A DNA stretch of 31,272 bases from Alphaproteobacteria bacterium (lineage in GTDB: Bacteria; Pseudomonadota; Alphaproteobacteria; Rhizobiales; Rhizobiaceae): the NCBI GenBank assembly GCA_017308345.1, contig JAFKFE010001198.1, forward strand, positions 1,334-32,605, read 5' to 3'. Of this stretch, positions 11,099 to 30,012 are shown piece by piece. The translations under genes were made by a program, and so were the position numbers. Positions within the stretch are counted from its first letter, which is position 1; each line of letters begins with the position of its first letter. Under the pieces are notes generated by a model. It saw nothing but the letters and a program-made list of their open reading frames with translations, searched no databases and was not told where the DNA came from.

Positions 11099-11137
11099 CC
11101 TTGGCTGCCTTGGGCGGGGCAAACGAAGAGGTGACGA

Positions 11138-13300: not shown

Positions 13301-13343
13301 AGAAAAGCCGCGCAAGGGCGCGTTCGCAAATCCGAAAAATGTC

Positions 13344-13368
13344 GGAACCGATAGCCGATCTACGCGTT
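13344..13368 (+). promoter_or_regulatory. EcfG-type (general stress response sigma) promoter of otsA
   Basis: GGAAC at 13344-13348 and CGTT at 13365-13368 are separated by exactly 16 nt, a perfect match to the alphaproteobacterial EcfG/RpoE2 consensus (GGAAC-N16/17-CGTT). It lies in the 153-bp gap before otsA. Trehalose synthesis genes are established EcfG targets in rhizobia. A transcript starting around 13375 would have a leader of about 80 nt to ATG 13454. Confidence 0.75.
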
Positions 13369-13453
13369 TGCAAACTTGAACCGATTTCCCTGTCCGCAGC
13401 CGGAAATAACGAAAAACAATAAAGGCGAACAGCCGGAGGCAACCTGGCATTCA

Positions 13454-15241
13454 ATGACACAGTTTGGCGTCGACCTGTTGTGGGTGCCTATCCTGGCAAG
13501 TCTCGGACTTTCCGCTCTGGCGATCTTCATCTCAATGTCCCGGCACCGGCGCCAATATTCGCGCGCCGCGGCATCGCCGGGTGAAGACGTCGCGTCCGAG
13601 GCCGCACGGAAGGCTCTGCGCGAATTTGAGAAGAACGGCCAGCCGGTCGATGCGGCCCTCGTGACATGGTCGCCGCAAACCTTGCGCAAGATCCTTGCGG
13701 AGGATCTGCCGGACGCTCAGGTGATCGTCGTCTCCAACCGCGAGCCTTATATCCACAACGAGACCAAGGACGGCGAGATTGAATTGGTGGTGCCGGCGAG
13801 CGGGTTGGTTTCCGCTCTGGAGCCGATCACGCGCGCCTGCGCCGGCACGTGGATCGCCTATGGCGGCGGCAGTGCCGACCGCAGGACGGTCGACAGCGAC
13901 GACCGGCTGCAGGTCCCGCCGGCGAGGCCTTCCTACACGCTGCGCCGCGTCTGGCTGAGCGAGGAGGAATATCAGGGTTACTATCTCGGTTTCGCCAATG
14001 AAGGCCTTTGGCCGCTCTGCCATATCGCGTTCACGCGGCCGATCTTCCGATCCGCCGACTGGGACGCCTACGAAGCGGTCAACCGCAAATTCGCCGAAAC
14101 GGTAGTTGCCGAAGCGCGTAACGAGCGGCCGATCGTGCTGGTCCAGGATTATCATTTCGCGCTTTTGCCGCGCATGATCCGCGAGCATCTGCCCGAGGCG
14201 ATCATCATCACTTTCTGGCACATACCATGGCCAAACTCTGAAGTGTTCAGCATATGCCCCTGGCGCGAGCGAATACTGGACGGCCTGCTCGGCAGTTCGA
14301 TCATCGGCTTCCATACCCAGTTTCATGCCAACAACTTCATGGAGAGCGTCGACCGCTTCATGGAGAGCCGCATCGAGCGTGCCGATGCGGCCATTTCCTA
14401 CGGTGGACAAGTGACATTGGTCCATGCCTATCCGATCTCGATCGAATGGCCCGACGAGCTTCTCGGCGGCCTGCCCAGCGTCGAGGAATGCCGCGTTCGC
14501 ATCCGCAGCCGGTTCGGCATTCCCGCCGACGCCAAATTGTGCGTCGGCGTCGAGCGCCTCGACTACATCAAGGGCATTCTCGATCGCTTCCATGCACTGG
14601 AGGAACTCTTCGACCGGGCTCCGGACATGATCGGCAAAGTGGTGTTTCTGCAGATCGCCGCGCCCAGCCGCGGCACGCTGCCAGCCTACAAACAACTTCA
14701 CGATGAATGCCTGCGCCTGGCGGATGACCTCAACAGACGCTATGGCTGCGAGGGTTACAGTCCTGTCGTGATGGTGGCGGAGCATCACAAACAGGCTGAT
14801 GTGTATGAGCTTTATCGCGCGGCCGACATCTGCCTTGTAACCAGCCTACATGACGGCATGAACCTCGTCGCCAAGGAGTTCGTGGCATCGCGCGACGACG
14901 AGCAGGGGGTGCTGCTTCTCAGCACTTTCGCCGGCGCCTCGCGCGAATTGCTGGAGGCGCTGATAGTCAATCCCTACGACGCGGCGATGATGAGCGAGGC
15001 GATGCTGCAAGCGTTGGCCATGGAGCCGGGCGAGCAGCGTGAGCGCATGCGGCGCATGCGCGAGATCGTGCGCGACAACAATGTCTACCGCTGGGCCGGC
15101 AGCATGCTGCTCGACGCGGCTCGGCTCAGGAAACGAGGTGATCTCGACCGCGTCACCGCTTCATACGACCGCGCGATCGACCCAGCCGGCGACAATGTCG
15201 TTTCCATGTTCGAACGCAAACAGGCAGTTGGACTCCGATGA
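13454..15241 (+). CDS. otsA: Trehalose-6-phosphate synthase (GT20) with N-terminal membrane anchor
   Basis: This gene encodes 595 residues from ATG 13454. GGAGG lies about 14 nt upstream, which is long. The frame also has a TTG at 13376, but that sits at the predicted transcription start and is disfavoured. The enzyme makes trehalose-6-phosphate from a nucleotide-glucose and glucose-6-phosphate. GT20 motifs are all present: [46 protein letters not shown], the catalytic Arg/Lys in ERLDYIKGI, and [13 protein letters not shown]. Unusually, residues 8-28 ([21 protein letters not shown]) form a transmembrane helix followed by SRHRRQ and a ~60-residue linker, so the catalytic domain should be tethered on the cytoplasmic face. 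E. coli OtsA is soluble and ~475 residues. The stop overlaps the otsB start. A glucosylglycerol-phosphate synthase is an alternative, made less likely by the adjacent OtsB. Confidence 0.9.
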
Positions 15242-16020
15242 ACGTTCAGGCAGATATCGCCCCCTCGCTTCCCGAAGGCCGGTGGGCGCTTTTCCTCGAT
15301 ATCGATGGGACCTTGCTAGAGCACGCGGCGCATCCCGATGCCGTTTCAGTGAGCCAGGAATTGCGGAAATTGCTGGAGACGATCGAGCGGCGGCTCGACG
15401 GAGCGCTCGCCTTCATCACCGGCCGTTCGATCCCAGCCGTCGACCATCTGTTCGACCCGTTGAAACTGCGTATCGCCGGCCTCTATGGACTGGAGCACCG
15501 GCTTCTACCAGGTGGAGAGATCAAGGCCGCCGACGAGCCGGCGGACATGGCGGTGCTCGCCGATGAGATCGAGTTGGAGTTGGCAAGCAGGGCCGTTTAT
15601 GTCGAACGCAAAGGTCCAGTGCTCGCTATCCATACGAGGGCCGCGCCGCATCTCCTGGCGCGCGCGACGGAGTTGGTGGAGGCGGCGCTTCAGCGCCTGC
15701 CGAAGGGCTACCGGGTGATCGCCGGCAATGCCGGCGTCGAACTGATGCCGCTCGAAGCCGCCAAGGGCGCCGCGATCCGGAGGTTCATGCGCATCGATCC
15801 CTTTTCCGGCAGGCGCCCGGTATTCCTCGGGGACGACACATCCGACGAGAACGGTTTCGATACGGTCAATGCCCTTGGCGGCATTTCGATCCGGGTGAAG
15901 CCGCAAGGCGACACGTCGGCGCGCTTCGCCATTGAGGATGTCGCCGGGGCGCTCAACTGGCTGGCGGCGAATTTCGGTGATGGGCTTATCCAGCAAATCC
16001 GCAGCAATCTTGTCGCCTAG
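15238..16020 (+). CDS. otsB: Trehalose-6-phosphate phosphatase
   Basis: This is a 260-residue HAD-superfamily phosphatase that dephosphorylates trehalose-6-phosphate to trehalose in the cytoplasm. HAD motif I is LFLDIDGTL (nucleophile Asp21, acid/base Asp23). Motif II lies around AFITGRS, a Lys-containing EAAKGAAIRRFM segment provides motif III, and motif IV is FLGDDTSDENGF. The cap-region GLYGLEHR loop and the final GISIRVKPQ are typical of OtsB. ATG 15238 overlaps the otsA stop (ATGA), so synthesis of both enzymes is coupled and both should share the EcfG-type promoter before otsA. It is the last gene of the block and converges with the ABC ATPase gene, 32 bp away. Confidence 0.95.
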   Translation: MNVQADIAPSLPEGRWALFLDIDGTLLEHAAHPDAVSVSQELRKLLETIERRLDGALAFITGRSIPAVDHLFDPLKLRIAGLYGLEHRLLPGGEIKAADEPADMAVLADEIELELASRAVYVERKGPVLAIHTRAAPHLLARATELVEAALQRLPKGYRVIAGNAGVELMPLEAAKGAAIRRFMRIDPFSGRRPVFLGDDTSDENGFDTVNALGGISIRVKPQGDTSARFAIEDVAGALNWLAANFGDGLIQQIRSNLVA

Positions 16021-16052: not shown

Positions 16053-16790
16053 CTATTGCTGCTGCAGGCCCGTGATCATGGCGATGATCTCGTTCTTGTC
16101 GGTCTTCTTCGTCTCGCGCACGCCGATCTGCTTGCCGCGCCTCAAGACACAGATGCGGTCCGACAGCTTGAACACCTGATCGAGGCTGTGGCTGATGATC
16201 AGGATGCCTACATTGCGCTGCTTGAGGGACTGAACGATCGCCTCCACCCTGGCGGTCTCGGCAACGCCGAGAGCGGCTGTCGGCTCGTCGAGCAGGATCA
16301 GCTTGCTCGCCCAATGCGTCGCCCTGGCGATCGCGACGCCCTGGCGCTGGCCGCCGGAGAGGTCGCGGATGGTGGCGTGCGCGGAGGGGATGCGCACGTC
16401 CAGTTCCTTCACCAGCTTTTCCGTCTCGTCGATCATGCGGCGGCGGTCGAGCAGGCCGAAGCGGTTCAGCGGTTCGCGGCCGAGGAACATGTTCATGTAG
16501 ACGGTCTGCTGGTCGGCTAAAGCGAGATCCTGATAGACCACCTCGATGCCGTGCGCGCGCCCCATTGTGGCGTTGGACATCGTCACCGGCTTGCCCTCGA
16601 TCGTGATCGTGCCGGAAGACGGCGGATGCACGCCGGAGATGATCTTGACCAGCGTCGACTTGCCGGCACCGTTGTCGCCGACAAGCGCGACGATCTCGCC
16701 AGGAAAGACCTCGAGCGAGAAGTTCTCGATCGCGGTGAGGCCACCGAAATTCTTGCGAATGTCCTGAAGCTGCAGGATGGGCGCGCTCAT
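16053..16790 (-). CDS. CUT2-type sugar ABC transporter ATP-binding protein (single NBD)
   Basis: The protein is 245 residues from ATG 16790. An ATG two codons earlier, 16796, is possible but leaves AAAGAG directly against the codon, whereas AGAG spacing suits 16790. It has one NBD: Walker A GDNGAGKS (38-45), Q-loop YQDLALADQQ, signature LSGGQRQGVAIARA, Walker B LILLDEPTAALG and H-loop ISHS. This resembles FrcA-type half-size ATPases of CUT2 systems and probably works as a homodimer with the permease at 18069-19040. It is the last gene of the minus-strand operon, separated from the YhfX-like gene by a palindromic repeat. Confidence 0.93.
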   Translation of the reverse strand: MSAPILQLQDIRKNFGGLTAIENFSLEVFPGEIVALVGDNGAGKSTLVKIISGVHPPSSGTITIEGKPVTMSNATMGRAHGIEVVYQDLALADQQTVYMNMFLGREPLNRFGLLDRRRMIDETEKLVKELDVRIPSAHATIRDLSGGQRQGVAIARATHWASKLILLDEPTAALGVAETARVEAIVQSLKQRNVGILIISHSLDQVFKLSDRICVLRRGKQIGVRETKKTDKNEIIAMITGLQQQ

Positions 16791-16807
16791 CGTCATCTCT
16801 TTCGTTG

Positions 16808-16856
16808 GAGCATGATCTTGTCCGAAAACCGGTTCCCACTTGTCGGAATCATGCTC
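16808..16856. repeat. 49-bp palindromic intergenic repeat (GAGCATGAT ... ATCATGCTC)
   Basis: There are perfect 9-bp terminal arms GAGCATGAT and ATCATGCTC, internal complementary TCCGA and TCGGA, and a central ACCGGT palindrome. It lies between the YhfX-like gene and the ATPase gene within the operon, and its right end touches the YhfX stop codon. Elements with this GAGCATGAT/CCGAAAACCGG pattern are, from memory, very common between genes in Mesorhizobium and related genera. In the transcript it would form a stable hairpin. Confidence 0.7.
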
Positions 16857-18055
16857 TAGACAGGCCAGGCATAGGGTTCACCAAAGCCATTCTCGATGGT
16901 TTCGACCTTCGGACTGCCCTTCGAGATGCCCGACACGCCAACGACATAGGCGCGGGTGACGAAGGCCTGGCCGCGGAAGCCGAAGACGGCGCTGTCGCCG
17001 GGCTTCGGAGCCCGCGCGCCGGAGGCGTCGATCATGGCGTAGTAGTCGATCGCCGAGGGCGGCGGCACTTCGACGCTCCTGAGCGCGGAAGCCTTGGCGG
17101 TGGGCTCGGCCGAGACGATCGCCTTGACGTCGTAGTCCGGGAAGATCGGATCGATATAGAAGCCACCGCCGAAACAGTAGGCCTTGCCGCCCGAAAGATG
17201 CGACACCTCGGTGAGATAGAGCACTGCAGGCAGTTCCGGCAGGTCCTCCATGACATGCAGCGCCGTGGTGCCGTGCAGGCCGTTGCCGGGTTCGCATTGC
17301 GTTGCGCCGGCCTCCGCCAGCGCAGCCAGCATGACGCTCGACGTCGTGCCCGGCGCATTGATCTCGATGTCCTTGCGGCCTGCCTTGGCGAGCGCCTCGG
17401 CGGCCTTGCTCAGTGTCGCCAGATTGGGCGTCGGCAGCACTTTTCGCGAGGCATGGTCGAAGAGCAGGGCGGGGAAAGTGGTGATGCCGGCAAAGCGGGC
17501 GCCTGGAACGGCATCGAGCCGGTCGGCGACAGCGACAACCTCGCCGGCGTCGAAGCCACCTTCATGGCCGCGGTAGAAAATGTCCCCCTCTGCCGCGATG
17601 CGGGCGAGCAGGTTCTGGGCATAGCCGGCCGCCTTGGCGCCCCTGCCTGCTTCCTCGGCCTTGGCGTCGTTGAAGACGGTCCAATAGTCCGGCTGGAACG
17701 TCCTTGCCGCAGCATTGGCTTCGAATTTCGCGATCTGCTGCAGATGGCCAAGATGGCCGAGCTTCATGCCGGCCTTATGCGTGGCGCGCGCGCCGGCCAT
17801 GTCGACCGCAACCGCGCGTTCGATGCCGCCACGCATCACCGCCTTGCAGAATGAGCTCGAGCGGCCGACCTGCTTGGTCATGGCGAAGATATTCAGGCCG
17901 AGCCGGTCGGCTTCGTCCTTGAGAACCTTGGCGTTGCGCTCGACCGCATCGAGATCGAGCACATAGGCGTTGGCCGGCAGCTTGCCCTGTTGATGAAGGC
18001 CGATCGCCGCTTCGACGAAGGCGGGGTTGCGGCGGCGCAGAACGTCGAGAAACAT
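16856..18055 (-). CDS. YhfX-family PLP-dependent protein (alanine-racemase-like fold)
   Basis: This 399-residue protein is similar along its length to E. coli YhfX. It begins MFLDVLRRRNPAFVEAAIGLHQQGKLPANAYVLDLDAVERNAKVL and has MTKQVGRSSSFCKAVM (the lysine is the expected PLP attachment), GHLGHLQQI, FYRGHEGGF, GITTFPALLFD, KVLPTPNLATL, INAPGTTSS, ATQCEPGNGLHGT, SHLSGGKAYCFGGGFY and SAIDYYAMID. The fold is that of alanine racemase or D-threonine aldolase barrels. The biochemical function of YhfX is not established to my knowledge; amino-acid racemisation or a related PLP reaction is inferred. The gene starts 13 bp after the permease stop, with GAAGGA upstream of ATG 18055, so it is part of the transport operon. 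The other E. coli yhf genes are absent here, making this context unusual. Confidence 0.85.
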   Translation of the reverse strand: MFLDVLRRRNPAFVEAAIGLHQQGKLPANAYVLDLDAVERNAKVLKDEADRLGLNIFAMTKQVGRSSSFCKAVMRGGIERAVAVDMAGARATHKAGMKLGHLGHLQQIAKFEANAAARTFQPDYWTVFNDAKAEEAGRGAKAAGYAQNLLARIAAEGDIFYRGHEGGFDAGEVVAVADRLDAVPGARFAGITTFPALLFDHASRKVLPTPNLATLSKAAEALAKAGRKDIEINAPGTTSSVMLAALAEAGATQCEPGNGLHGTTALHVMEDLPELPAVLYLTEVSHLSGGKAYCFGGGFYIDPIFPDYDVKAIVSAEPTAKASALRSVEVPPPSAIDYYAMIDASGARAPKPGDSAVFGFRGQAFVTRAYVVGVSGISKGSPKVETIENGFGEPYAWPV

Positions 18056-18068
18056 GGAAAAGGTTCCT

Positions 18069-19040
18069 TCAGCGGGATTTGTCGCGCAGCGACACGGCGA
18101 CGGCGGTCAGGATGATCAGGCCGCGCACGATCATCTGGTCGGAGACCGAAAGCCCCATCAGGATCAGGCCGTTGTTCAGCATGCCCATCATCAGCGAGCC
18201 GACGAGCGCGCCGATAATCGAGCCCTTGCCGCCATTGAGCAGCGTGCCGCCGACGATGACGGCGGCGATGACCGTCATCAGGTCGGTTTCGCCTAGCGTG
18301 TATTTCGCCGCCTGCAGGCGTCCGGCGTAAAGCAGTCCGGCAAGGCCGGCGAGGCCGCCGCTGATGGTGAGCACGGCGAGCCTGATCCCAGGCACGCTGA
18401 TGCCAGATACGCTCGCCGCGCGCGCATTGTCGCCGGTCGCCAGCACATGCGCGCCGAAACGGGTCTCGCGGTAGACGAGGTGGCCGACGGCAATGGCGAT
18501 GACCGTCCACCAGATGAGCGACGGCACTCCGAGCAGCGAACCCGAGCCGAAGAAACCGGTGAAGGTCTCATTGGTGACCGAGATCGAGCGCAGATCGGTC
18601 ATCGAGCGCGAGACGCCCGCGAACAGGCCCATCGTCGCCAGGGTCACCAGGAAGGACGGCAGCCTGACATAGGCGACCAGCGCGCCGTTGATAAGGCCGA
18701 TCAGGATGCCGGCGCCCAGGCCGACGACGATGCCGGCCGCCATCCCATAGGAGGCGATGGTGACGGCGGCGGCGAGCGCCGCGACCGCCACGATCGAGCC
18801 GATCGAAAGGTCGATCTCGCCGGCCGACATGACGAAGACGAGGCCTATCGCCATGATCGTCACCGGCGCCGTTTGCAGCACGATATTGGAGAGGTTGCGG
18901 ACGGTGAGGAAGCCGCTGTCCCTCAGCATGAAGGCGAAGAACAGGAAGATCGCCACGAAGCCGAGATAGACGACATATTGCTGCAGATTGAAGCGGCTTG
19001 CGAAGCTGCCTACCTCGGTACCGGTATTGGCGCTGGTCAT
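18069..19040 (-). CDS. CUT2-type sugar ABC transporter permease (RbsC family)
   Basis: This gene encodes a 323-residue polytopic inner-membrane protein with many hydrophobic segments, the first at about residues 25-45 (YLGFVAIFLFFAFML). Family signatures are VMSAGEIDLSIGSIVAVAALAAAV, the SFLVTLATMGLFAGVSR region, the cytoplasmic loop TRFGAHVLATGDNARAASVSGI that contacts the ATPase, and the C-terminal GRLQAAKYTLGETDLMTVIAAVIVGGTLLNGGKGSIIGALVGSLMMGMLNNGL. CUT2 permeases act as homodimers, so one gene suffices. ATG 19040 follows GGAG with a 7-nt spacer. It lies between the two binding-protein genes (upstream) and the YhfX-like gene (13 bp downstream). The substrate is unknown. Confidence 0.95.
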   Translation of the reverse strand: MTSANTGTEVGSFASRFNLQQYVVYLGFVAIFLFFAFMLRDSGFLTVRNLSNIVLQTAPVTIMAIGLVFVMSAGEIDLSIGSIVAVAALAAAVTIASYGMAAGIVVGLGAGILIGLINGALVAYVRLPSFLVTLATMGLFAGVSRSMTDLRSISVTNETFTGFFGSGSLLGVPSLIWWTVIAIAVGHLVYRETRFGAHVLATGDNARAASVSGISVPGIRLAVLTISGGLAGLAGLLYAGRLQAAKYTLGETDLMTVIAAVIVGGTLLNGGKGSIIGALVGSLMMGMLNNGLILMGLSVSDQMIVRGLIILTAVAVSLRDKSR

Positions 19041-19083
19041 GTTCGATCTCCGACGGTGAGTGCTTCGCAGCCTGCCACGGCGG

Positions 19084-20145
19084 TTACTTCATGGCGTCCG
19101 CGATGGTCGCGGGCACATCCTTGTTGAGCGACTTCTTCCAGCCGTCCTTCACCGTCTCCTTGGTAACGGCGATGGAATCCACCGCGTAGAAAGGCTCGGC
19201 CTTCAGGCCCACCAGCGAACCCGCCGAGGCACGCGCCAGCGTCACGCCGATCGAGTAGGCCTCGTCGGCGACAAGAGCCGCGATGTTGCCGCCCTTGACC
19301 ATGTCGAGCGCGGCCGGTTCGTTGAGGTCGAGCGTGACGATCTTGGTGTGCGTGTTGCCGGCGGCGCGCAGCGCCGAGAGCACGCTGAGAGCCGGCTCGG
19401 CCCAGGTGACATAGATGCCGTCGAGATCCGGATGCTGGGTGATCATCGCCTGCGCGATGTCCTCTGAGCGCGCCGGATCGGCCATGCCGGCCTCGGCCGC
19501 GATCTTCATGTCGGGATAATCCTGCTCGATGGTCTTCTTGAAGGCGCCGTCGCGCTGGTTGGTGACGTAGAAATCGGCATCATGGAAGATGTAGCCGACC
19601 TTGCCCTTCTTGCCGAGCGCCTCGGCCATGGCGATGCCGGCCTTGTTGCCCATCTGGAAGAGATCGTCCGAAACGATGGTGACGTAGTCGGTACCCTGCT
19701 TGTAGCCTGCCGGGCAATTGTCGACGAAGCCGAGCCTGACACCGGCCTGGCGCGCCGGATCGTAGACTGAGGCCGCGGTCGCCGGATCGACCGGCAGCGA
19801 CAGGATGATCGACGGCTTCTTGGCCATCACGGTCTCGACGTCGGCCTTCTGGCGCGCGGCGTCGAAGCCGGCGTCGGTCTGCGCCACCACCTCGATACCG
19901 AGACGCTCGAACTCGTCGCGCGCGCCGGCGTTGACGGCGTTGGTGTACTCGCTCATCTCGTGCCAGACGAGGGCGGCGGTGAACTTGCCGTCCTTGATCT
20001 GCTGCTCCTGGGGCGCGGTCAGCGTCAGGGAAGCGGCCGGAACCGGCTTCTCGCCGTTCGGGCCGGTGGTGACGCCTTCGGCGGCGAAGGCATGGGCGGC
20101 GAGCAGGCTCGCCAATACGGTCACAATACTCAAAGCTTTACGCAT
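19084..20145 (-). CDS. Periplasmic substrate-binding protein, CUT2-like (copy 1 of tandem pair)
   Basis: The protein is 353 residues from ATG 20145, which follows AGAAGGGGA; the open frame continues upstream without a better start. The signal peptide is MRKALSIVTVLASLLAAHAFA with cleavage before AEG. The mature part is a type-1 periplasmic-binding fold: AALVWHEMSEYTNAVNAGARDEFERLGI, VMAKKPSIILSLPVDP, QGTDYVTIVSDDLFQMGNKAGIAMAEAL, GKVGYIFHDADFYVTNQRDGAFKKTI, LDGIYVTWAEPA and IVTLDLNEPAALDMVKGGNIAALVAD. It is closely similar to the protein encoded just upstream (20210-21271) and of identical length, indicating tandem duplication. It probably binds the operon's substrate or a stereoisomer of it. 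Confidence 0.93.
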   Translation of the reverse strand: MRKALSIVTVLASLLAAHAFAAEGVTTGPNGEKPVPAASLTLTAPQEQQIKDGKFTAALVWHEMSEYTNAVNAGARDEFERLGIEVVAQTDAGFDAARQKADVETVMAKKPSIILSLPVDPATAASVYDPARQAGVRLGFVDNCPAGYKQGTDYVTIVSDDLFQMGNKAGIAMAEALGKKGKVGYIFHDADFYVTNQRDGAFKKTIEQDYPDMKIAAEAGMADPARSEDIAQAMITQHPDLDGIYVTWAEPALSVLSALRAAGNTHTKIVTLDLNEPAALDMVKGGNIAALVADEAYSIGVTLARASAGSLVGLKAEPFYAVDSIAVTKETVKDGWKKSLNKDVPATIADAMK

Positions 20146-20174
20146 GTCGGTTCCCCTTCTTTGTATAGACGAGA

Positions 20175-20202
20175 GCTCCGGCTCGGCTTGCCGCGCCGGA
20201 GC
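20175..20202. other. 8-bp perfect stem-loop between the two binding-protein genes
   Basis: GCTCCGGC (20175-20182) and GCCGGAGC (20195-20202) form a perfect 8-bp stem around a 12-nt loop in the 64-bp gap between the two binding-protein genes. No U-run follows on the minus strand, so an mRNA-stability or processing hairpin fits better than a terminator. Confidence 0.5.
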
Positions 20203-20209
20203 GTTGGCT

Positions 20210-21271
20210 TCACTTCGCCGCGTCGAGCACCGACTGCGGCGCGTCGCGGTTGAGCGAATCCTTCCAGCCCTGCGAGACATTGTCCTTGGTCACGGTCAGC
20301 GCCGGCGCGACGACGAAGGCGGGCGTCTGCTGGCCAAGCAGCGACTTCATGCCGGAGGCGGCCATGGCGCGGCCGAGCTCATAGGCCTTGTCGGCGACGA
20401 GCGCCGCGACATTGCCGCCCTTGACCATGTCGAGCGCAACCGGCTCCGCGAGATCGAGCGTCACGATCTTGGTGTGGGTGTTGCCGGCGCCGCGCAGCGC
20501 CGAAAGCACGCCGTCGGCGGGTTCGGCCCAGGTCACGTAGATGCCGTCGAGCTCGGGGTGCTGCAGCAGCATGGCATTGGCCAGCTCCTCGGCGCGGGCC
20601 GGGTCGGAGATGCCCTGTTCGGCGACGATCTTGATGTCGGGATAATCCTTCTCGATGGTCTTCTTGAAGGACTGGTCGCGCTGGTTGGTGACGTAGTAAC
20701 TGGCGTCGTGGAAGATGTAGCCGACCTTGCCCTTGCCGCCGATGGCCTTGGCCATCGCATCGGCTGCCTGCTTGCCCATCTGGTAGAGATCGTCGGTGAC
20801 GATCGAGGCATAATCGGTGCCTTGCTTATAATCCTTCGGCAGGTTGGACAGGAACACCAGCTTGACGCCGTCCCCGACTGCCTGGCGGAAGGCTTCGGCG
20901 GAGGTAACCGGATCCAGCGGCAACGCCAGGATGACGTTCGGCTTGGCCGCGAGCGCGGTCTCGATGTCGCTGCGCTGTCGGGCGGCGTCGAACTGCGCGT
21001 CGGTCTTGACCGCGATCGGGATGCCGGCGCGGGCGAATTCGTCGGTGGCGCCCGCGGTCACCGCGTTGGTGAAATCGGAAGAGGTGTGCCACAGAAGGGC
21101 CGCCTTGTAGCCCTTGTCCTTCAGCGCCGCGATGTCGGCATCGCTCAGCGTCAGGCTGGAACTGGGGGTGGCGGTTTCGCCCTGTGGGCCAACCGTCTGC
21201 GCGTGAGCAGCGCCGGCGGCGAGCATCAATCCGCCGGCCAGTGTGGCGGCAATCCATTTCTTCATCAGCAT
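20210..21271 (-). CDS. Periplasmic substrate-binding protein, CUT2-like (copy 2 of tandem pair)
   Basis: The protein is 353 residues from ATG 21271, preceded by GGGAG at 8 nt; a second ATG two codons later is less well spaced. The signal peptide is MLMKKWIAATLAGGLMLAAGAAHA with cleavage before QTV. The mature fold parallels its neighbour: AALLWHTSSDFTNAVTAGATDEFARAGI, ALAAKPNVILALPLDP, GKVGYIFHDASYYVTNQRDQSFKKTI, LDGIYVTWAEPADGVLSALRGAGNTHTKIVTLDLAEPVALDMVKGGNVAALVAD. Long stretches are identical to copy 1, while the C-terminal ~50 residues diverge most. It is the first transporter gene after the M20 hydrolase (34-bp gap). Two binding proteins for one permease suggest two related ligands or affinities, which is inference. 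Confidence 0.93.
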   Translation of the reverse strand: MLMKKWIAATLAGGLMLAAGAAHAQTVGPQGETATPSSSLTLSDADIAALKDKGYKAALLWHTSSDFTNAVTAGATDEFARAGIPIAVKTDAQFDAARQRSDIETALAAKPNVILALPLDPVTSAEAFRQAVGDGVKLVFLSNLPKDYKQGTDYASIVTDDLYQMGKQAADAMAKAIGGKGKVGYIFHDASYYVTNQRDQSFKKTIEKDYPDIKIVAEQGISDPARAEELANAMLLQHPELDGIYVTWAEPADGVLSALRGAGNTHTKIVTLDLAEPVALDMVKGGNVAALVADKAYELGRAMAASGMKSLLGQQTPAFVVAPALTVTKDNVSQGWKDSLNRDAPQSVLDAAK

Positions 21272-21305
21272 GTTCCAGTCTCCCATTTTCTGCTTCGTTG
21301 GTCGT

Positions 21306-22559
21306 TCAGTCGGCCATGCCGCAATAGCGGGCCATGAAGGCTGCGAAGCCGACGATGCCGGCGAGGTATTCCTCGACATCGACGTGCTCCTCGAAAGTGT
21401 GGCAGTTGCGGATATCGCCCGGCGCGCAATAGACGGCGGGAATGCCGAGCCGATTGACGAAGAACGGAGATTCCGACCAGAAGGGCGCCCCCTCGACCAC
21501 GCCGCGTCCCGTCATTGCCCCCGCCATCGATTGCGACAGCATCGTGACTTCGGCGCGCGCCTCGTCGATCTCGGCGGCCGTGCCGCCCAGCCTGTGATCG
21601 CGAGCGGCCGGATAGGCGAACTCCACGGTGATCTCCGGATCGGTGATCGCGCCGCGCACCGCGGCCTCGATCTCGGCGGCGGCCGTGTCGAGGTCCTCGC
21701 CCGGCAGGAGCTTGCGGATCAGCGACAGCGTGCATCGCTCGGGCACCGCGATATAGCCGCCGCCGGAGAGGCCGGTGATCAGCAGGAAGCCGCGCCCGGT
21801 GAGCTTGTGCTCGGCGCGGGCAGCCACCTCGTCGGAGTGTTTCCACAGCGCCGTCATCGCGGAATGCGCGGCGCGAAGGGCGTCCTTGCCGAGCTCCGGC
21901 ACGCCGAAATAGGCCGATTTGCCGGCAATCGTGATGTCGGTGATGAAGAAGCCGATCTGCGCGGCGTAGACGGCAAGCCGCGTCGGCTCGACATAGACGG
22001 TGAAGTCGGGCGCCGCGACCTCGCCGGCCTCGATGCGGCCGACGAAATGCTTGATGCCGGCGGAGACGCCGGTGCCGGGCTGGCCGCTTTCCTCGTCGCC
22101 GACGAAGGCGAAGGCGACGTCGCCCTTGAGGCGGATGCCGGCCTTGTCGAGCAGCGAGAGGGCCGCGAGCGAGGCGGTGATGCCGGCCTTCAGATCGCCC
22201 GAACCGCGGCCCCAGACCGCCCCATCGATGATGGGCGCGCCGAACGGATCCTCGCGCTCGGTGCCTGCCCAATGCTCGCGCCAGCCATCGACATGGACGG
22301 TGTCGGTATGGCCGATGAACAGCAGGCGCCTGCCGTTGCCGGCACCCTTGCGCTCGCCCCAGATGTTCGGCCTGCCGGGCAGGAAATCCGCCCGGTTCAA
22401 GCCGCTCAGTCCCAGCTCGCGCATCTTCGCTTCGAGGAAGTCGACGAAATTCGCTTCGTTGCCGGTGATGCTTTCGCGGCCGATCGCGCCCCTGAATAGC
22501 GCCAGCGCCTGGTCGGGACCGAGAGCGGCTCGCAGTCGGGTTGTGATGTCGCTGGTCAC
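21306..22559 (-). CDS. M20-family metallohydrolase (ArgE/DapE/CPG2-like)
   Basis: The protein is 417 residues. The start is GTG 22559, which overlaps the ROK stop (GTGA) and has AAGGAGG 7 nt upstream; the open frame extends further, but that region lies inside the ROK gene. Metal-site motifs are LLFIGHTDTVH (His84, Asp86), WGRGSGDLKAG (Asp122), and the catalytic GDEESG (Glu156) with the metal-binding Glu157. DIRNCHTFEEHVDVEEY near the end supplies the last His. M20 enzymes hydrolyse amide bonds of acyl-amino acids, dipeptides or carbamoylated amino acids using Zn2+. There is no signal peptide, so it acts in the cytoplasm on an imported compound. The coupling to a CUT2 transporter is noteworthy, and the substrate is not known. 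Confidence 0.93.
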   Translation of the reverse strand: MTSDITTRLRAALGPDQALALFRGAIGRESITGNEANFVDFLEAKMRELGLSGLNRADFLPGRPNIWGERKGAGNGRRLLFIGHTDTVHVDGWREHWAGTEREDPFGAPIIDGAVWGRGSGDLKAGITASLAALSLLDKAGIRLKGDVAFAFVGDEESGQPGTGVSAGIKHFVGRIEAGEVAAPDFTVYVEPTRLAVYAAQIGFFITDITIAGKSAYFGVPELGKDALRAAHSAMTALWKHSDEVAARAEHKLTGRGFLLITGLSGGGYIAVPERCTLSLIRKLLPGEDLDTAAAEIEAAVRGAITDPEITVEFAYPAARDHRLGGTAAEIDEARAEVTMLSQSMAGAMTGRGVVEGAPFWSESPFFVNRLGIPAVYCAPGDIRNCHTFEEHVDVEEYLAGIVGFAAFMARYCGMAD

Positions 22560-23800
22560 AGCACGACCTCCTTCAAGGCAGCGGCCTGGGCGGTGGGGAG
22601 CGAAATGCGGCCGTCCGGCGCGTCGACGCCGAAGAGCGTGTTGTGCAACTGGCCGAGACCGATGGCGGCCGCGCCGATCAGTGCCGCCCGCGCTCCCAAC
22701 TCGCCGGCCTCGACGGTGACGGGGTAGGGGAAGCACAGTGGCATCAGGTCCTTGACGCGCGAGAGGATCTCCGGCCTGAGGCCGATCGAACCACCAAGAA
22801 TGACCTTTTCCGGATTGGCGACGGCGGCGATCGCCGCAATGCCCTGCGCCAGATAACGCGCCGTCTCGTCGAGCACGGTGAGCGCTGCCTTGTCGCCGGC
22901 TGCCGCATTCTCGAAGATTGCGGGAACCGCGACCTGGGTGCCGGTCAGGGATCTGTAGCGCTCGGTCATGGCGTGCGTCGCCACCGCCCGTTCGAAAGCG
23001 CCAGTGCGCAGCGATTCCGCGGCGAACGGATCGGCGCCGATCGGCATGAAACCGATTTCGCCCGCCGCATGAGTGGCGCCGCGCACCAGATGGCCGCCCA
23101 GCATCAGGCCGCTGCCGACGCCAGTGCCAAGCGCGATATAGGCGAGATTGTCGATGCCCTGGCCCTGGCCCAGCCAGTTCTCGCCCAACACGGCGAGATT
23201 GACGTCGTTCTCGATCATCACGGCGACGCCCAGCGCTCTCTCCAGGGCGTCGAGGACATTCATGGTGTCGAAGCCCGCGATGTTGGGCGCCAGCAGGATG
23301 CGGCCCGTCGCCGGATCGGGAGCGCCCGGCGCGCCGACAACGGCGAGACGTATCTTCTTACGCGGAATGCGCTGCCTGGCGGCGGCCTGGAAGGCAAGCG
23401 CCGCGATCTGGTCGATGACGAACTGGCCGCCGCGTGGGTCGGTCGGCGTCGCCGCTTCGGCGAAGATCTGGCAGGCGAGGTCGGTCAGCGCCACCCGCAC
23501 CTTGGTGCCGCCGAGATCGACGGCGATGATGTAGGCGGCGTCGTGGACGAGCTCATAGGTGACGGCGGTGCGCCCGACATGGCCGCTGGTGCGCCCGGTC
23601 TCCTGGACCCAGCCCTCCTGCTCGAGCCCGCGCACGATTTCCGAGATCGTCTGCTTCGACAGACCGGTGAGCTTCGAGATCGAAGCCCGCGATATCGGCC
23701 CGCCCTGGACGATCGCCTCCATGACGGAGCGCTGCGAGAACTGGCGGGAAATGCGCGGCAGATCGCTCACATCGAGCCTCGTATTAATTCGTTCTGTCAC
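22556..23800 (-). CDS. ROK-family transcriptional regulator (NagC/XylR-like)
   Basis: This gene encodes 414 residues from GTG 23800. A second in-frame GTG at 23770 has a better site (GAGG, 6-nt spacer) and would give 404 residues. The winged HTH is at about 20-70 (QRSVMEAIVQGGPISRASISKLTGLSKQTISEIVRGLEQEGWVQETG). The ROK sugar-kinase-like domain follows: IIAVDLGGTKVRVAL (phosphate-1), GAPGAPDPATGRI, IENDVNLAVLGE, ALGTGVGSGLMLGGHLVRGATHAAGEIGF and VILGGSI. The zinc-binding CxCGxxGC motif of typical ROK proteins is absent. It probably senses the imported substrate or a breakdown product and controls its own operon, which it heads, and it is translationally coupled to the M20 gene (GTGA). Confidence 0.93.
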   Translation of the reverse strand: MTERINTRLDVSDLPRISRQFSQRSVMEAIVQGGPISRASISKLTGLSKQTISEIVRGLEQEGWVQETGRTSGHVGRTAVTYELVHDAAYIIAVDLGGTKVRVALTDLACQIFAEAATPTDPRGGQFVIDQIAALAFQAAARQRIPRKKIRLAVVGAPGAPDPATGRILLAPNIAGFDTMNVLDALERALGVAVMIENDVNLAVLGENWLGQGQGIDNLAYIALGTGVGSGLMLGGHLVRGATHAAGEIGFMPIGADPFAAESLRTGAFERAVATHAMTERYRSLTGTQVAVPAIFENAAAGDKAALTVLDETARYLAQGIAAIAAVANPEKVILGGSIGLRPEILSRVKDLMPLCFPYPVTVEAGELGARAALIGAAAIGLGQLHNTLFGVDAPDGRISLPTAQAAALKEVVL

Positions 23801-23802
23801 CG

Positions 23803-23831
23803 AACTTATTGGTCGAAGTGCCGGCTGTCAA
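23803..23831 (-). promoter_or_regulatory. Candidate sigma70-type promoter for the ROK operon
   Basis: On the minus strand TTGACA (23831-23826) is followed after exactly 17 nt by TAAGTT (23808-23803). The -35 is perfect and the -10 weak. Transcription would begin near 23797, just inside the GTG at 23800, favouring the downstream GTG 23770 as the real start. Confidence 0.4.
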
Positions 23832-23999: not shown

Positions 24000-24989
24000 T
24001 CAGTTCCTGTCGACCGGCTTGGAGCGCATGCGCGACACCGTCTCGCGCTCGGCGCGCTTGGAACGCATTGGCGGCAGGCCGCGGTCGATGAGGTCCATGT
24101 CCTCCAGCACCATGTCGCCCATGCGCTTGAAGGCGATGTCGAGCGCGCCGGCGCGGTGGGCCGAGCGCAGAAAGCCGGGGAGGGCGCGGACGGGATGGTC
24201 CTTGGCGAGCGGCTCTTCGGGAAAGACATCGCTCGCGGCAACGATGTGGCCGCTTTTCACCGCCGCCATCAGTGCCGCGAAATCGACGACGCCGGCGCGG
24301 CTGAGCAGGATGAAAGCCGCGCCCTCGCGCATCTTGGCGAATGAGCCCGCGCCGAGAAAACCCTGGTTCTCGCTGGTGACGGAAGCGACGACGAAGACGA
24401 AGTCGCTTTGCGACAACACTTCGTCCAGCGAGGCCGGCTCGACACCGTTGTCGATCAGGATCGATGGCGGCAGCCACGGATCGTAAACCTTGGTGCGGGT
24501 GCGAAAGCCGGTCAGCAGGCGGTTGAGCGCGCGGCCGAGATCGCCGAAGCCGATGATGCCGACGTCGGCGCCGGAGAGCAGCCGCGCCGTCTGATTGCCG
24601 TCGCCGCCCCACAATTCCTTGCCTTGCCGAAAGGCGAGATCGGCATCGACGATGTCGCGCGCCAGATTCAGCGCCATGGCAAGCCCGAGCTCCGCGACCG
24701 GTTCGGCAAAGACCAGGCCGGTGGTGACGACATGGATGCCGCGCTGAAACAGCGTCTCATAGGGCATGTTGTTGAGGAGGTTGGTCTCGACGTTGAAGAT
24801 GCAGCGCAGCGCCTTCAGCTTCTCCAGCGTTTCGGCTGAAATCGGCGGCTGGCCGATGATGTAGCGCGCCTCGGCCAGCGTTTCCGCGGGCAGGGCGGCA
24901 ACGCCTTCGGGCGTGGTCTCGACGATGCGATAGTGCTTGCTGCGCGGCTCGGGCGCGCTGATGACCAGCGGCAGGGCTTTGTCGGACAT
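24000..24989 (-). CDS. D-isomer-specific 2-hydroxyacid dehydrogenase, NAD-binding
   Basis: The protein is 329 residues from ATG 24989, which follows GGGAGG; the frame upstream has no good ribosome site. The NAD-binding domain carries ADVGIIGFGDLGRALNRLL (GxGxxG, about 147-165) followed by VYDPWLPP. The expected catalytic trio appears as Arg in LLSRAGVVD, Glu in DVFPEEPL and His in LRSAHRAGALD. The N-terminal substrate domain has CIFNVETNLLNNMP and TTGLVFAEPVAELGLAMALNLARDI. The enzyme interconverts a D-2-hydroxyacid and a 2-oxoacid in the cytoplasm, with substrate unknown. It is transcribed divergently from the LacI gene across 143 bp that hold operator-like sites, so it probably belongs to that regulon. 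The basic C-terminal tail (RSKRAERETVSRMRSK) is unusual for the family. Confidence 0.92.
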   Translation of the reverse strand: MSDKALPLVISAPEPRSKHYRIVETTPEGVAALPAETLAEARYIIGQPPISAETLEKLKALRCIFNVETNLLNNMPYETLFQRGIHVVTTGLVFAEPVAELGLAMALNLARDIVDADLAFRQGKELWGGDGNQTARLLSGADVGIIGFGDLGRALNRLLTGFRTRTKVYDPWLPPSILIDNGVEPASLDEVLSQSDFVFVVASVTSENQGFLGAGSFAKMREGAAFILLSRAGVVDFAALMAAVKSGHIVAASDVFPEEPLAKDHPVRALPGFLRSAHRAGALDIAFKRMGDMVLEDMDLIDRGLPPMRSKRAERETVSRMRSKPVDRN

Positions 24990-25000
24990 TTTTCCTCCCG

Positions 25001-25019
25001 GACGCGATTGGATCGCGTC
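25001..25019. promoter_or_regulatory. Perfect 8-bp inverted repeat (GACGCGAT-N3-ATCGCGTC)
   Basis: The arms are 25001-25008 and 25012-25019. They sit immediately upstream of the GGGAGG site of the hydroxyacid dehydrogenase gene in the divergent region. This could be an operator or a leader hairpin controlling translation. The sequence differs from the AAATCGATTT sites nearby, so a different regulator is possible. Confidence 0.5.
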
Positions 25020-25045
25020 AATCACATCTTTCAGTCTTACTCCCG

Positions 25046-25086
25046 ATGAAACGATTTACAAGGATGAAAAATCGATTTATCGATTG
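25046..25086. promoter_or_regulatory. Candidate LacI-family operators in the divergent lacI / dehydrogenase region
   Basis: A perfect palindrome AAATCGATTT lies at 25069-25078 and overlaps a further ATCGATT at 25079-25085. A weaker copy, GAAACGATTT, lies at 25048-25057. The central CG pairs of the two main sites (25052/53 and 25073/74) are 21 bp apart, two helical turns. LacI-family operators are typically palindromes with a central CG, and the same core recurs at 26293-26304. Confidence 0.6.
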
Positions 25087-25132
25087 GGTCAGCGAGGCAG
25101 AAAATCGGCTGCCTGCCCTCGGGAGGAGGTCA

Positions 25133-26209
25133 ATGGCGCATCAGGGAGCCCAGCAGCGGCGTCCGTCGATCCACGACGTGGCAAGCCATGCCGGCGTGTC
25201 CGCGGCCACCGTCTCCAAGGTGCTTGCCGGCGTCAGCACGGTTAAGCCGGAAAACGCGCAGCGTGTGCTCGATGCCGTCGAGCGTCTGGGCTACCGCGTC
25301 GATCCGCTTGCATCCGACATGCGCAGGGCCAAGCGCCGCATCATCGGCGCCATCATGCCAGAGTTTGAAAGCGAGTTCTTCGGCCAGATGGTCACTGAAC
25401 TGGAGGGCCTTGCCGAGCAGCGCGGGTACACGCTGGTCGCGGCGTCGAGCCGTGAATCGGAAGCGCGCGAGAAGGAGATCCTTGCCCGCATGCATGACTG
25501 GCGCGTTGCCGGCGTGGTGCTGGCGCCGGTGCGCAACGAGCACGGCCCGGCGGCCGCCTTCATGAAAGCCAACGGCATGACGGGCGTGCTGATCGACCGC
25601 GTGCTCTCCGACGACGCTTTCGACACCGTTTCGGCCGACAGCGCCGCCGCCAGCGCCGAGGTGGCGCGGATGCTGGTTGGGAAGGGCCACAAGCACATCC
25701 TGATCATCGGTCTCGCCGAAGGCGCGGCAACCGTGCGCGCTCGCCTGGAGGGTTTTCGCGCCCAGGCCCTGGCGCTCGATCCGTCGGTGCATATCGACGT
25801 CATCACTTCGGAAGTCAGCGTCGAGCCGTTGCGCTCCTCTCTTCGCGATTATTTTGCCAGGGGGGAGCGGCCGACCGCCGTTTATTCGCTACTTCTGAAA
25901 GGAACGCTCGTCGCGCTGTCCGAATTCCGCCGGCGCGGCTGGCATTGCCCGAACGACATTTCGCTGGTCGGCTTCGACGACGCCGAATGGATGCAGGTGA
26001 CGTGGCCGGCGATCGCCGCCGTGGTGCAGCCGGTGCGCCAGATCGCCAGCGAGGCGATGAATCTTTTGTTTCGCAGGGTCGAGGGCTTGGTGGGGCCACC
26101 CACGGCGCGGCTCGAACCCTGCCAGGTGTTGATGCGGGAATCCGTTGGCTCGCCAGGCAGCGGCCCGCATTCCGGGGGAGGAGACCGACAACAGCCCCCA
26201 TTGTCGTGA
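25133..26209 (+). CDS. LacI-family transcriptional regulator
   Basis: The protein is 358 residues from ATG 25133, preceded by GGGAGGAGG; the frame opens earlier, but the upstream part covers the operator region. The N-terminal HTH and hinge read PSIHDVASHAGVSAATVSKVLAGVSTVKPENAQRVLDAVERLGYRVDPLASDMRRAKRRIIGAIMPEFESEFFGQMV (residues 10-85), followed by a periplasmic-binding-like sensor domain with VLIDRV, DSAAASAEVARMLVGKGHKHILIIG and DISLVGFDDAEWMQV. It should repress the downstream sugar-transport operon, the divergent dehydrogenase and itself, and be released by a sugar or sugar phosphate. The C-terminus carries a short Ser/Gly-rich tail. The binding-protein gene follows 61 bp later. Confidence 0.94.
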   Translation: MAHQGAQQRRPSIHDVASHAGVSAATVSKVLAGVSTVKPENAQRVLDAVERLGYRVDPLASDMRRAKRRIIGAIMPEFESEFFGQMVTELEGLAEQRGYTLVAASSRESEAREKEILARMHDWRVAGVVLAPVRNEHGPAAAFMKANGMTGVLIDRVLSDDAFDTVSADSAAASAEVARMLVGKGHKHILIIGLAEGAATVRARLEGFRAQALALDPSVHIDVITSEVSVEPLRSSLRDYFARGERPTAVYSLLLKGTLVALSEFRRRGWHCPNDISLVGFDDAEWMQVTWPAIAAVVQPVRQIASEAMNLLFRRVEGLVGPPTARLEPCQVLMRESVGSPGSGPHSGGGDRQQPPLS

Positions 26210-26219
26210 ACGGAAGCAT

Positions 26220-26248
26220 GCGCCGGCCCTGGCCGAGGCATCCGGCGC
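26220..26248. other. 7-bp inverted repeat (GCGCCGG / CCGGCGC) between the LacI and binding-protein genes
   Basis: Arms 26220-26226 and 26242-26248 with a 15-nt loop lie in the 61-bp gap before the binding-protein gene. It may act as a weak leader hairpin or partial terminator separating regulator and transporter expression. No U-run follows. Confidence 0.3.
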
Positions 26249-26270
26249 CAAGGATCGAACGGAGGATCGA

Positions 26271-27260
26271 ATGACATCGCATTTCTTGAAAATAAATCGA
26301 TTTACCCTTGCAATGGGCGTCGCGCTCGCCCTTTGCGCCGTCGGCACCGCCAAGGCCGAGGACGGTGAGTACGGCGTGCTGATGAAGACGCTGGCCAATC
26401 CGTTCTGGGGCGCGATGGCGCAAGGCGTCGAGGATGGCGCCAAGGAGGCCGGCGTGAAATATTTCCAGCAGGCTGCCGAGAGCGACCAGGCGGCCGAGCC
26501 GCAGCTCAACCTGTGCAACACCATGCTGGAACGCAAGCCGGTAGCGATGATCACCGCCGCCATCAACTCCACCAACCTTCTGCCTTGCCTGAAATCGGCG
26601 CAGGATGCTGGCATCAAGATCGTCGACCTCGACAACAATCTCGACCAGGCGGTGCTCGACAAGGAAGGCGTCAAGGTCACCTTCCATATCGGCTCCGACA
26701 ATATCGCAGCGGGCGCGCAGGGCGCCGAATACCTCGCCAACAAGCTCGGCAAGGATGCCAAGGGACCGGTGCTGGTCATCGAAGGACTCTCCGGCAACAT
26801 CACCGGCGAGAAGCGCGCCAAGGGTTTTGCCGACAAGCTGAAGGAACTGGCGCCGGGGCTCGAAATCGTCGCCTCGCTGCCGGGCGACTGGGATCGCGGC
26901 AAGGCCGCCTCGATCGCCACCGACACGCTGACCGCGCATCCCGATCTCGTCGCCATCTTCTGCGCCAATGACGGCATGGCGCTGGGCGCGGTGGAGTCGG
27001 TCTACGCGGCCGGCAAGGGTCCGCAGGTGACGATCATCGGCGTCGACGGCAATTCCGACGCGGTGAAGTCGATCAAGGAAGGCCGCCTCAACGCCTCGGT
27101 GGCGCAGCTTCCGTATCTGGTCGGCAAGCAGGCGGTGGAAAACGTCAAGAAGGCTTTGGCCGGCGAGAAGGTCGAGGACAGCATCGCCGTGCCGACGCTG
27201 GTGCTGACCAAGGACGTGATCGACGCCGGCAAGGAGCCGATGCTGCAATATGTGAAGTGA
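26271..27260 (+). CDS. CUT2 sugar-binding periplasmic protein (D-allose-binding-protein-like)
   Basis: The protein is 329 residues. ATG 26271 has GGAGG 5-6 nt upstream, while the frame further upstream lies over the lacI end. The signal peptide is about residues 1-29 (MTSHFLKINRFTLAMGVALALCAVGTAKA). The mature protein starts EDGEYGVLMKTLANPFWGAMAQGVEDGAKEAG, close to E. coli AlsB (EYAVVLKTLSNPFW), and has VDLDNNLDQ, GSDNIAAGAQGAEYLANKLG, VIEGLSGNITGEKRAKGF, DWDRGKAASIATDTL, IFCANDGMALGAVESV and VGVDG-type hinge residues. It delivers a monosaccharide, plausibly a rare hexose or ketose given the downstream epimerase, to the permease. A perfect operator-like palindrome lies within codons 8-12. 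It is separated from the permease gene by a 124-bp repeat-containing gap. Confidence 0.94.
   Translation: MTSHFLKINRFTLAMGVALALCAVGTAKAEDGEYGVLMKTLANPFWGAMAQGVEDGAKEAGVKYFQQAAESDQAAEPQLNLCNTMLERKPVAMITAAINSTNLLPCLKSAQDAGIKIVDLDNNLDQAVLDKEGVKVTFHIGSDNIAAGAQGAEYLANKLGKDAKGPVLVIEGLSGNITGEKRAKGFADKLKELAPGLEIVASLPGDWDRGKAASIATDTLTAHPDLVAIFCANDGMALGAVESVYAAGKGPQVTIIGVDGNSDAVKSIKEGRLNASVAQLPYLVGKQAVENVKKALAGEKVEDSIAVPTLVLTKDVIDAGKEPMLQYVK
26293..26304. promoter_or_regulatory. Intragenic LacI-type operator candidate (TAAATCGATTTA)
   Basis: This perfect 12-bp palindrome sits 22 bp downstream of the binding-protein start codon. It shares the AAATCGATTT core with the sites 1.2 kb upstream in the divergent region. 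It could act as an auxiliary operator for DNA looping or as a roadblock. Confidence 0.5.
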
Positions 27261-27263
27261 GGG

Positions 27264-27350
27264 AATAGGCAGTAGGCAATAGGCAGTAGTGGGAGCAGGC
27301 GGCGCGGATCGCTGTCATATTCCTACTGCCTAAGCCCTACCTACTGCCTA
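27264..27350. repeat. Decamer direct and inverted repeats forming a long hairpin inside the transport operon
   Basis: TAGGCAGTAG occurs at 27266-27275 and 27280-27289. Its exact complement CTACTGCCTA occurs at 27323-27332 and 27341-27350. The two pairs nest to give two perfect 10-bp helices around a 33-nt loop. This lies in the gap 27261-27384 between the binding-protein and permease genes. Such a hairpin would protect the upstream message or attenuate read-through, which matches the usual need for excess binding protein. The left arm is built of AATAGGC/AGTAGGC-like 7-mers. Confidence 0.75.
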
Positions 27351-27384
27351 ATGCCTTGCTGCGGTCTCTCGAAGGTGCAAAGAC

Positions 27385-29144: not shown

Positions 29145-29145
29145 C

Positions 29146-30000: not shown

Positions 30001-30012
30001 TCGGGCGGTCGC

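Follow-up and report, generated by a model that had tools for sequence, protein, structure and literature searches.

What does a YhfX-family protein do in the middle of an operon for a sugar-type importer? YhfX is a pyridoxal phosphate (PLP) protein that also occurs in E. coli, its structure has been solved (PDB 4kbx), and no function was assigned to it in the open-licence literature that we searched. The question is raised by a 31,272-nucleotide stretch of DNA from a Rhizobiaceae bacterium (hereafter the window), which carries a seven-gene unit encoding a ROK-family regulator, an M20 hydrolase, two binding proteins (SBP1 and SBP2), a CUT2-type permease, YhfX and an ATP-binding cassette (ABC) ATPase. 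Tentatively, and with a probability that we put slightly short of even, we propose that this operon serves to take up and break down an amino sugar in N-acylated form, or a compound closely derived from an amino sugar, all of the chemistry being what we infer from the genes. The proposal, held at that strength, rests on a gene order kept in 73 of 80 related loci, a deaminase-like SIS gene coupled to the operon in relatives, the recurrence of the YhfX–SIS link in the actinobacterium Embleya, the ROK regulator, the CUT2-type permease, the sugar-binder fold of SBP1 and an operator lying over the promoter. The parts are of known kinds; in the open-licence literature searched we found neither experiments on the operon nor this combination of genes with the SIS link, which is what appears to be new.

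All seven genes run on the minus strand as one unit, in the order ROK-family transcription regulator (22556..23770), M20-family metallohydrolase (21306..22559; 417 residues from a GTG start), SBP1 (20210..21271) and SBP2 (19084..20145; 353 residues each), CUT2-type permease (18069..19040; 323 residues), YhfX-family PLP protein (16856..18055; 399 residues) and single-domain ABC ATPase (16053..16796; 247 residues). From the ROK gene through to the ATPase gene, the successive intergenic gaps are -4, 34, 64, 43, 13 and 59 bases, the first being a GTGA overlap of the TGA stop of the ROK gene with the GTG start of the M20 gene at 22559. The Pfam families are, in the same order, ROK with a helix-turn-helix, Peptidase_M20, Peripla_BP_4 twice, BPD_transp_2, Ala_racemase_N with YhfX-like_C, and ABC_tran. 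Seven genes on one strand with short gaps and one GTGA overlap, as a sequence-only reading had described the locus, are thus borne out by coordinates and families alike. A convergent trehalose-phosphatase gene lies 32 bases downstream of the ATPase gene, indicating that the unit ends there in the window.

That reading had also proposed looking for the same gene order in relatives, and the order was found to hold across many alphaproteobacterial genera. A search of genome contigs with the window's YhfX detected 103 relatives, and the 80 best-matching loci, each with at least 67% identity, formed our comparison set; as they were chosen by similarity to the window, they describe conservation within this branch and are no sample of all YhfX genes. 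The complete set of ROK, M20, one or two binding proteins, permease, YhfX and ATPase was present on the same strand in 73 of the 80 loci, all of which are alphaproteobacterial (Mesorhizobium, Ensifer, Rhizobium, Shinella, Aminobacter, Devosia, Thalassospira, Roseibium, Ruegeria and others). Two binding proteins were encoded in 48 of the complete loci (the second of L038, matched as two fragments, was counted once) and one in 25. Six of the incomplete loci (L028, L040, L057, L060, L065 and L072) are truncated by the end of a contig, beginning about 100 bases or less away from it. In L062 (5728-13035), from a Rhizobiaceae metagenome-assembled genome, what appears by eye to be a transposase-like open reading frame (ORF) takes the place of the ROK gene and most of the M20 gene, and the coupled SIS gene described below is split in two pieces, so this copy of the operon looks to be decaying. 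The six-family set was also found in a further alphaproteobacterial genome (L098) and in plasmid records of Ruegeria sp. TM1040 and Nitratireductor rhodophyticola. Nevertheless, the unit is patchy and rare overall: at E 1e-40, M20 relatives were detected in one of 289 sampled Alphaproteobacteria, namely the source genome itself, and the YhfX-like_C domain in 11 of 398 Pseudomonadota, the source genome included.

A pointer to the substrate class came from an eighth gene, found by clustering the ORFs around the 80 loci, where everything else that was widespread belonged to the core or was an antisense shadow of it. In 14 of the 80 loci, the window not among them (L029, L033, L039, L056, L065, L068, L069, L072, L073 and L075-L079), a SIS gene resembling NagB-II, an amino-sugar-phosphate deaminase, directly follows the ATPase gene, and in seven (L056, L065, L068, L069, L075, L077 and L078; ORFs as listed) the two genes overlap by four bases. 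Three coupled members tested scored 254-275 bits with NagB-II, about 145-150 with GlmS and at most 19 with fructoselysine-6-phosphate deglycase. The NCBIfam NagB-II cut-off of 430 (NF046059) was not reached by these three, and it does not discriminate here because the copy in the source genome's own nag set also stays below it (289.6). One coupled member was compared with solved structures, and its nearest matches include a glucosamine-6-phosphate deaminase (8eol, at 190.6 bits) as well as putative phosphosugar isomerases. Moreover, twelve aligned SIS proteins retain LKxxE, HGP and a C-terminal K-V/I-T, which we take to be catalytic features in GlmS.

At least one NagB-II-like protein was present in each of 22 genomes searched. 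Among the 12 genomes with a coupled gene, nine carry a further copy and three do not; nine of the ten genomes without a coupled gene have one copy, and the tenth has two. When the surroundings of five unlinked copies were inspected by eye, a nagA-like gene followed in four, and the fifth, from Aminobacter carboxidus, lay in a different sugar locus. In this last locus (L192, 5326-15312), again by eye, the NagB-II-like gene is surrounded by oxidoreductase-like genes and by genes for a glucokinase-like protein, a ROK-like regulator and a CUT2 importer; it may be one more locus for amino sugars. A tree of 34 rows places the 14 coupled proteins in a single group (support 85/85) with none of the 19 unlinked rows inside. 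The unlinked proteins of L166 (a nag-type copy) and L170 branch beside that group, apart from the other 17, and an Embleya protein sits on a long branch of unsure position. The coupled protein thus looks like a dedicated NagB-II relative, apart from the nag-operon copies, although the assignment is not firm. The nag operon for N-acetylglucosamine (GlcNAc) catabolism is comparable in that a NagB-II-like SIS protein would naturally close the pathway, but the coupled proteins group separately and the unit has neither a nagA-like nor a GlcNAc kinase gene. The source genome does have a nag set on another contig (C1095), where its NagB-II gene lies beside nagA-like and GntR genes (by eye) and a NagK-like kinase gene; we did not take that copy as proof of a link to the operon.

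The link between YhfX and a SIS protein recurs in a second phylum. A plasmid record of Embleya sp. NBC_00888, in a stretch that bears no annotation, encodes a YhfX 41% identical to that of the window, and on one strand with it a ROK regulator, an amino-acid-type permease, a ROK-family kinase that has no regulator domain within the scanned stretch, and a NagB-II-like SIS protein (178.5 bits). The link is thus present despite a different transporter and gene set. No M20 match was found in 25 kb around the Embleya YhfX gene; should M20 serve to remove an acyl group, a locus with a permease for free amines would understandably do without it. A search for relatives of the Embleya YhfX among viral contigs found none. 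The combination of amino-acid-type permease, kinase and SIS protein resembles the frl set, and it invites a reading of the whole system as a pathway for glycated amino acids (Amadori or Heyns compounds), in which the SIS protein would take the part that the deglycase has in the fructoselysine route, M20 would trim an acyl or peptide group, and YhfX, whose fold is that of amino-acid racemases and aldolases, would racemise or degrade the released amino acid. We regard this as unlikely, since the SIS proteins of relatives and of Embleya score 254-275 and 178.5 bits with NagB-II against at most 21 with the deglycase. In addition, it is established chemistry that the amine of a glycated amino acid, being secondary, is not open to binding by PLP, so that YhfX could act only after release.

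The importer likewise points toward sugars. A BPD_transp_2 permease with Peripla_BP_4 binding proteins is the arrangement of CUT2 sugar importers, and the best NCBIfam models for the permease are CUT2 permeases, below cut-off. SBP1 and SBP2 are paralogues (58% identity). In a fold comparison of the SBP1 model, the matches were mostly binders of ribose, arabinose, allose and other sugars, lying within a few Z units of one another, and no single ligand was singled out. Arg198, Trp248 and Asp273 of SBP1 are invariant; a pocket derived from ribose-binding-protein numbering was set aside, as the alignment is uncertain. The ATPase consists of one domain, with NCBIfam CUT2 models matching over about their first half, unlike the double-domain CUT2 form of about 500 residues. 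FrcA-like CUT2 importers have a single-domain ATPase. The permease and binding-protein families are alike in that group and in the present unit, which differs in having two binding proteins and in carrying M20 and YhfX genes within the transporter operon. The CUT2-type permease and the sugar-binder-like fold, together with the ROK regulator, speak against catabolism of acyl or D-amino acids, in which the binding proteins would take up an N-acyl amino acid, M20 would deacylate it and YhfX would racemise the product, the SIS genes being chance neighbours or serving another step. In its favour, N-acyl amino acids would be fitting substrates for an M20 enzyme paired with an alanine-racemase-like protein, and a SIS gene is missing from most loci. 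Given the overlap of the SIS and ATPase genes in seven loci and the renewed SIS link in Embleya, we nevertheless consider this explanation very unlikely.

The M20 protein retains the metal-binding motifs of the ArgE/DapE deacylases. His84, Asp86, Asp122, Glu156, Glu157, Glu191 and His387, presumably the metal ligands, are kept by no fewer than 97% of the 74 sequences compared, one from the window and 73 from relatives. At one position of the dimer domain all 74 have tyrosine (Tyr217), compared with histidine in three aligned solved relatives, which marks the M20 of this unit as a distinct subfamily. With TIGR01910 of NCBIfam it scores 142.3 bits and does not reach the cut-off of 217.6. A deacylase followed by a PLP enzyme has a precedent in oxidised-chitin catabolism. 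In Pseudoalteromonas prydzensis, GlcNAc1A loses its acetyl group through OngB, and the product is then deaminated by OngC, a PLP enzyme of fold type III (PMC9537276). By analogy, an N-acetyl-amino-aldonate such as GlcNAc1A might be imported, deacetylated by M20 and deaminated by YhfX to a keto-deoxy sugar acid, and M20 would suit an N-acyl group adjoining a carboxylate. Such a pathway is decidedly unlikely here. It has no need of a NagB-II-like step, and YhfX lacks the metal ligands of OngC's branch. The two systems would have in common that a deacylase works ahead of a PLP enzyme of fold type III on a compound of the amino-sugar kind, but they differ in their type of transporter, in the family of the deacylase and in their accessory genes. 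Transport in the ong system is by an SSS protein, and OngB is a D-aminoacylase (PMC9537276); of the ong components described there, family scans of the unit found no SSS transporter, D-aminoacylase, RidA protein or 2-keto-3-deoxygluconate (KDG) kinase.

YhfX itself is assigned by YhfX-like_C (PF21279, together with PF01168) at 88.3 bits against a cut-off of 27. Its PLP lysine, Lys61, and other shared residues are invariant in 17 members. It has the fold of D-threonine aldolase and alanine racemase without the metal ligands of the aldolases, and it differs from D-threonine aldolase and D-serine dehydratase (PF14031) in two respects. No Pfam match to PF14031 was found in the window's protein, and the metal segment P-x-H-x-C/D, as carried by 12 comparison proteins picked for having it, reads R-x-Q-x-F-x-T-R in all 17 YhfX proteins, with no His, Cys, Asp or Glu. 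In a Foldseek search alanine racemase ranks second, and the invariant Tyr280, Tyr300 and Tyr338, compared by sequence, are candidates for its catalytic tyrosine. We speculate, although we think it rather unlikely, that YhfX founds a metal-free branch of this fold acting on free amino sugars and not on amino acids, for instance as a PLP-dependent 2-epimerase turning an uncommon hexosamine into the substrate of a dedicated NagB-II-like deaminase. In that case the yhf operon of E. coli would likewise deal with an amino-sugar compound. In yhf-type loci the neighbours are YhfT, DUF2620, phosphotriesterase-like, phosphopentomutase and YhfS-like genes, as judged by eye around six YhfX genes that belong to other classes within the same phylum. 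None of these was found in the conserved unit by family scans or ORF clustering, in agreement with the sequence-only reading; conversely, the yhf-type loci lack ROK, M20 and the CUT2-type importer. A Cetobacterium yhf operon (L096, 3281-10357) has an amidase-like gene (Pfam Amidase, below cut-off) beside a phosphotriesterase-like gene, possibly a counterpart of M20.

Regulation of the operon was approached through 73 upstream regions, those of the window and of 72 loci with enough sequence. A first search, for exact palindromes only, found none common to them, and the motif surfaced through shuffled k-mer counts. The pattern TNAGTTCG-N9-CGAAYTNA, allowing up to two mismatches, occurs in 71 of the 73 regions (52 of them perfect) and in none of 1,460 shuffled ones. 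The exceptions are L055, with three mismatches, and L075. The window's palindromic operator, TAAGTTCGGTGACAGAACGAATTAA (23784..23808, minus strand), matches perfectly, and its first bases coincide with the presumed -10 box at 23803-23808. In 65 of the 71 regions the palindrome is preceded, at a distance of 16-19 bases, by a TTGACA-like box with no more than one mismatch, against 1.5% at random offsets, and the -35-like TTGACA at 23826..23831 (minus strand) was recognised from its sequence and this spacing. Given this conserved spacing, the palindrome sits on the position of the -10 box. As GTG 23800, which would give a ROK protein of 414 residues, falls within the palindrome, GTG 23770 (404 residues) is the more likely start. 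The source genome, a draft of 5.4 Mb in 1,307 contigs and about 80% complete, has a single perfect site, at the operon; at two mismatches it has six sites, against four for the reversed control. Sites with at most one mismatch occur in 17 of 18 relatives' genomes, the genome of L055 having none. A second site that shares the operator core occurs in Rhizobium sp. Root1212 (L146, 8712-8736), upstream of an oligopeptide-type ABC transporter and about 8 kb from what looks by eye like a ROK-like gene, and a Phyllobacterium genome has a second, perfect site without that core. The ROK protein, with its helix-turn-helix and ROK domain as in ROK repressors, presumably binds the palindrome. A cysteine-rich zinc motif is a feature of ROK repressors; this protein has two cysteines only and neither C-x-C nor G-C-x-E.

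Taken together, the amino-sugar reading would run as follows. The ligand, predicted to be an amino-sugar compound, would be imported by the binding proteins and the permease together with two paired single-domain ATPases, all of established families, and M20 would cleave the N-acyl amide of the ligand. YhfX, whose PLP needs a primary amine, might then act in some way at the carbon bearing the freed amine. A kinase coded elsewhere would phosphorylate the product, and a NagB-II-type SIS enzyme, operon-coded in 14 of the 80 relatives, would deaminate the amino-sugar phosphate into glycolysis. ROK would repress from the palindrome over the promoter, a site found in 71 of the 73 regions, until a pathway metabolite, presumably, releases it. 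Several observations weigh against this scheme. No SIS gene lies beside the operon in the window and in most loci, ORF clustering of the 80 loci revealed no kinase gene in the conserved unit, and the 85/85 support of the coupled SIS group is below the starred level of the tree tool. The best family matches of M20 are ArgE and DapE, and M20 enzymes usually act on N-acyl amino acids. The Embleya evidence is a single locus, and the yhf-type operons of the six other-class loci and of Cetobacterium have quite different neighbours, a warning that YhfX may serve another pathway, or more than one. The sequence-only reading had proposed a ligand with both sugar and amino-acid character: a sugar and amine character fits the NagB-II-like protein linked in relatives, but the data do not favour its emphasis on amino-acid conjugates, opines or D-amino acids above an amino sugar, whether plain or N-acylated.

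Other sugar genes flank the operon. Converging on it on the plus strand, a glycosyltransferase, a glycogen-debranching-like protein, a trehalose-phosphate synthase and the trehalose-phosphatase are encoded at 10040-16020. A neighbouring second sugar locus occupies 24000-31254, with a D-2-hydroxyacid dehydrogenase gene on the minus strand, then genes on the plus strand for a LacI regulator, an allose/ribose-type binding protein, a permease, an ATPase and a xylose-isomerase-like protein, and an aldehyde dehydrogenase gene on the minus strand. The D-2-hydroxyacid dehydrogenase gene (24000-25025), upstream of the operon, was considered as a member and rejected, as a match of at least 80% identity adjoins the operon in only 6 of the 80 loci, all of them Mesorhizobium.

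The conserved operon always puts YhfX between the permease and ATPase genes, and a deaminase-like link that recurs in two phyla leads to a short list of substrates and to an assay with four enzymes, a first testable lead on YhfX. If the amino-sugar reading is true, it would add an amino-sugar route to rhizobia, roseobacters and Thalassospira, the carriers being soil and marine bacteria.

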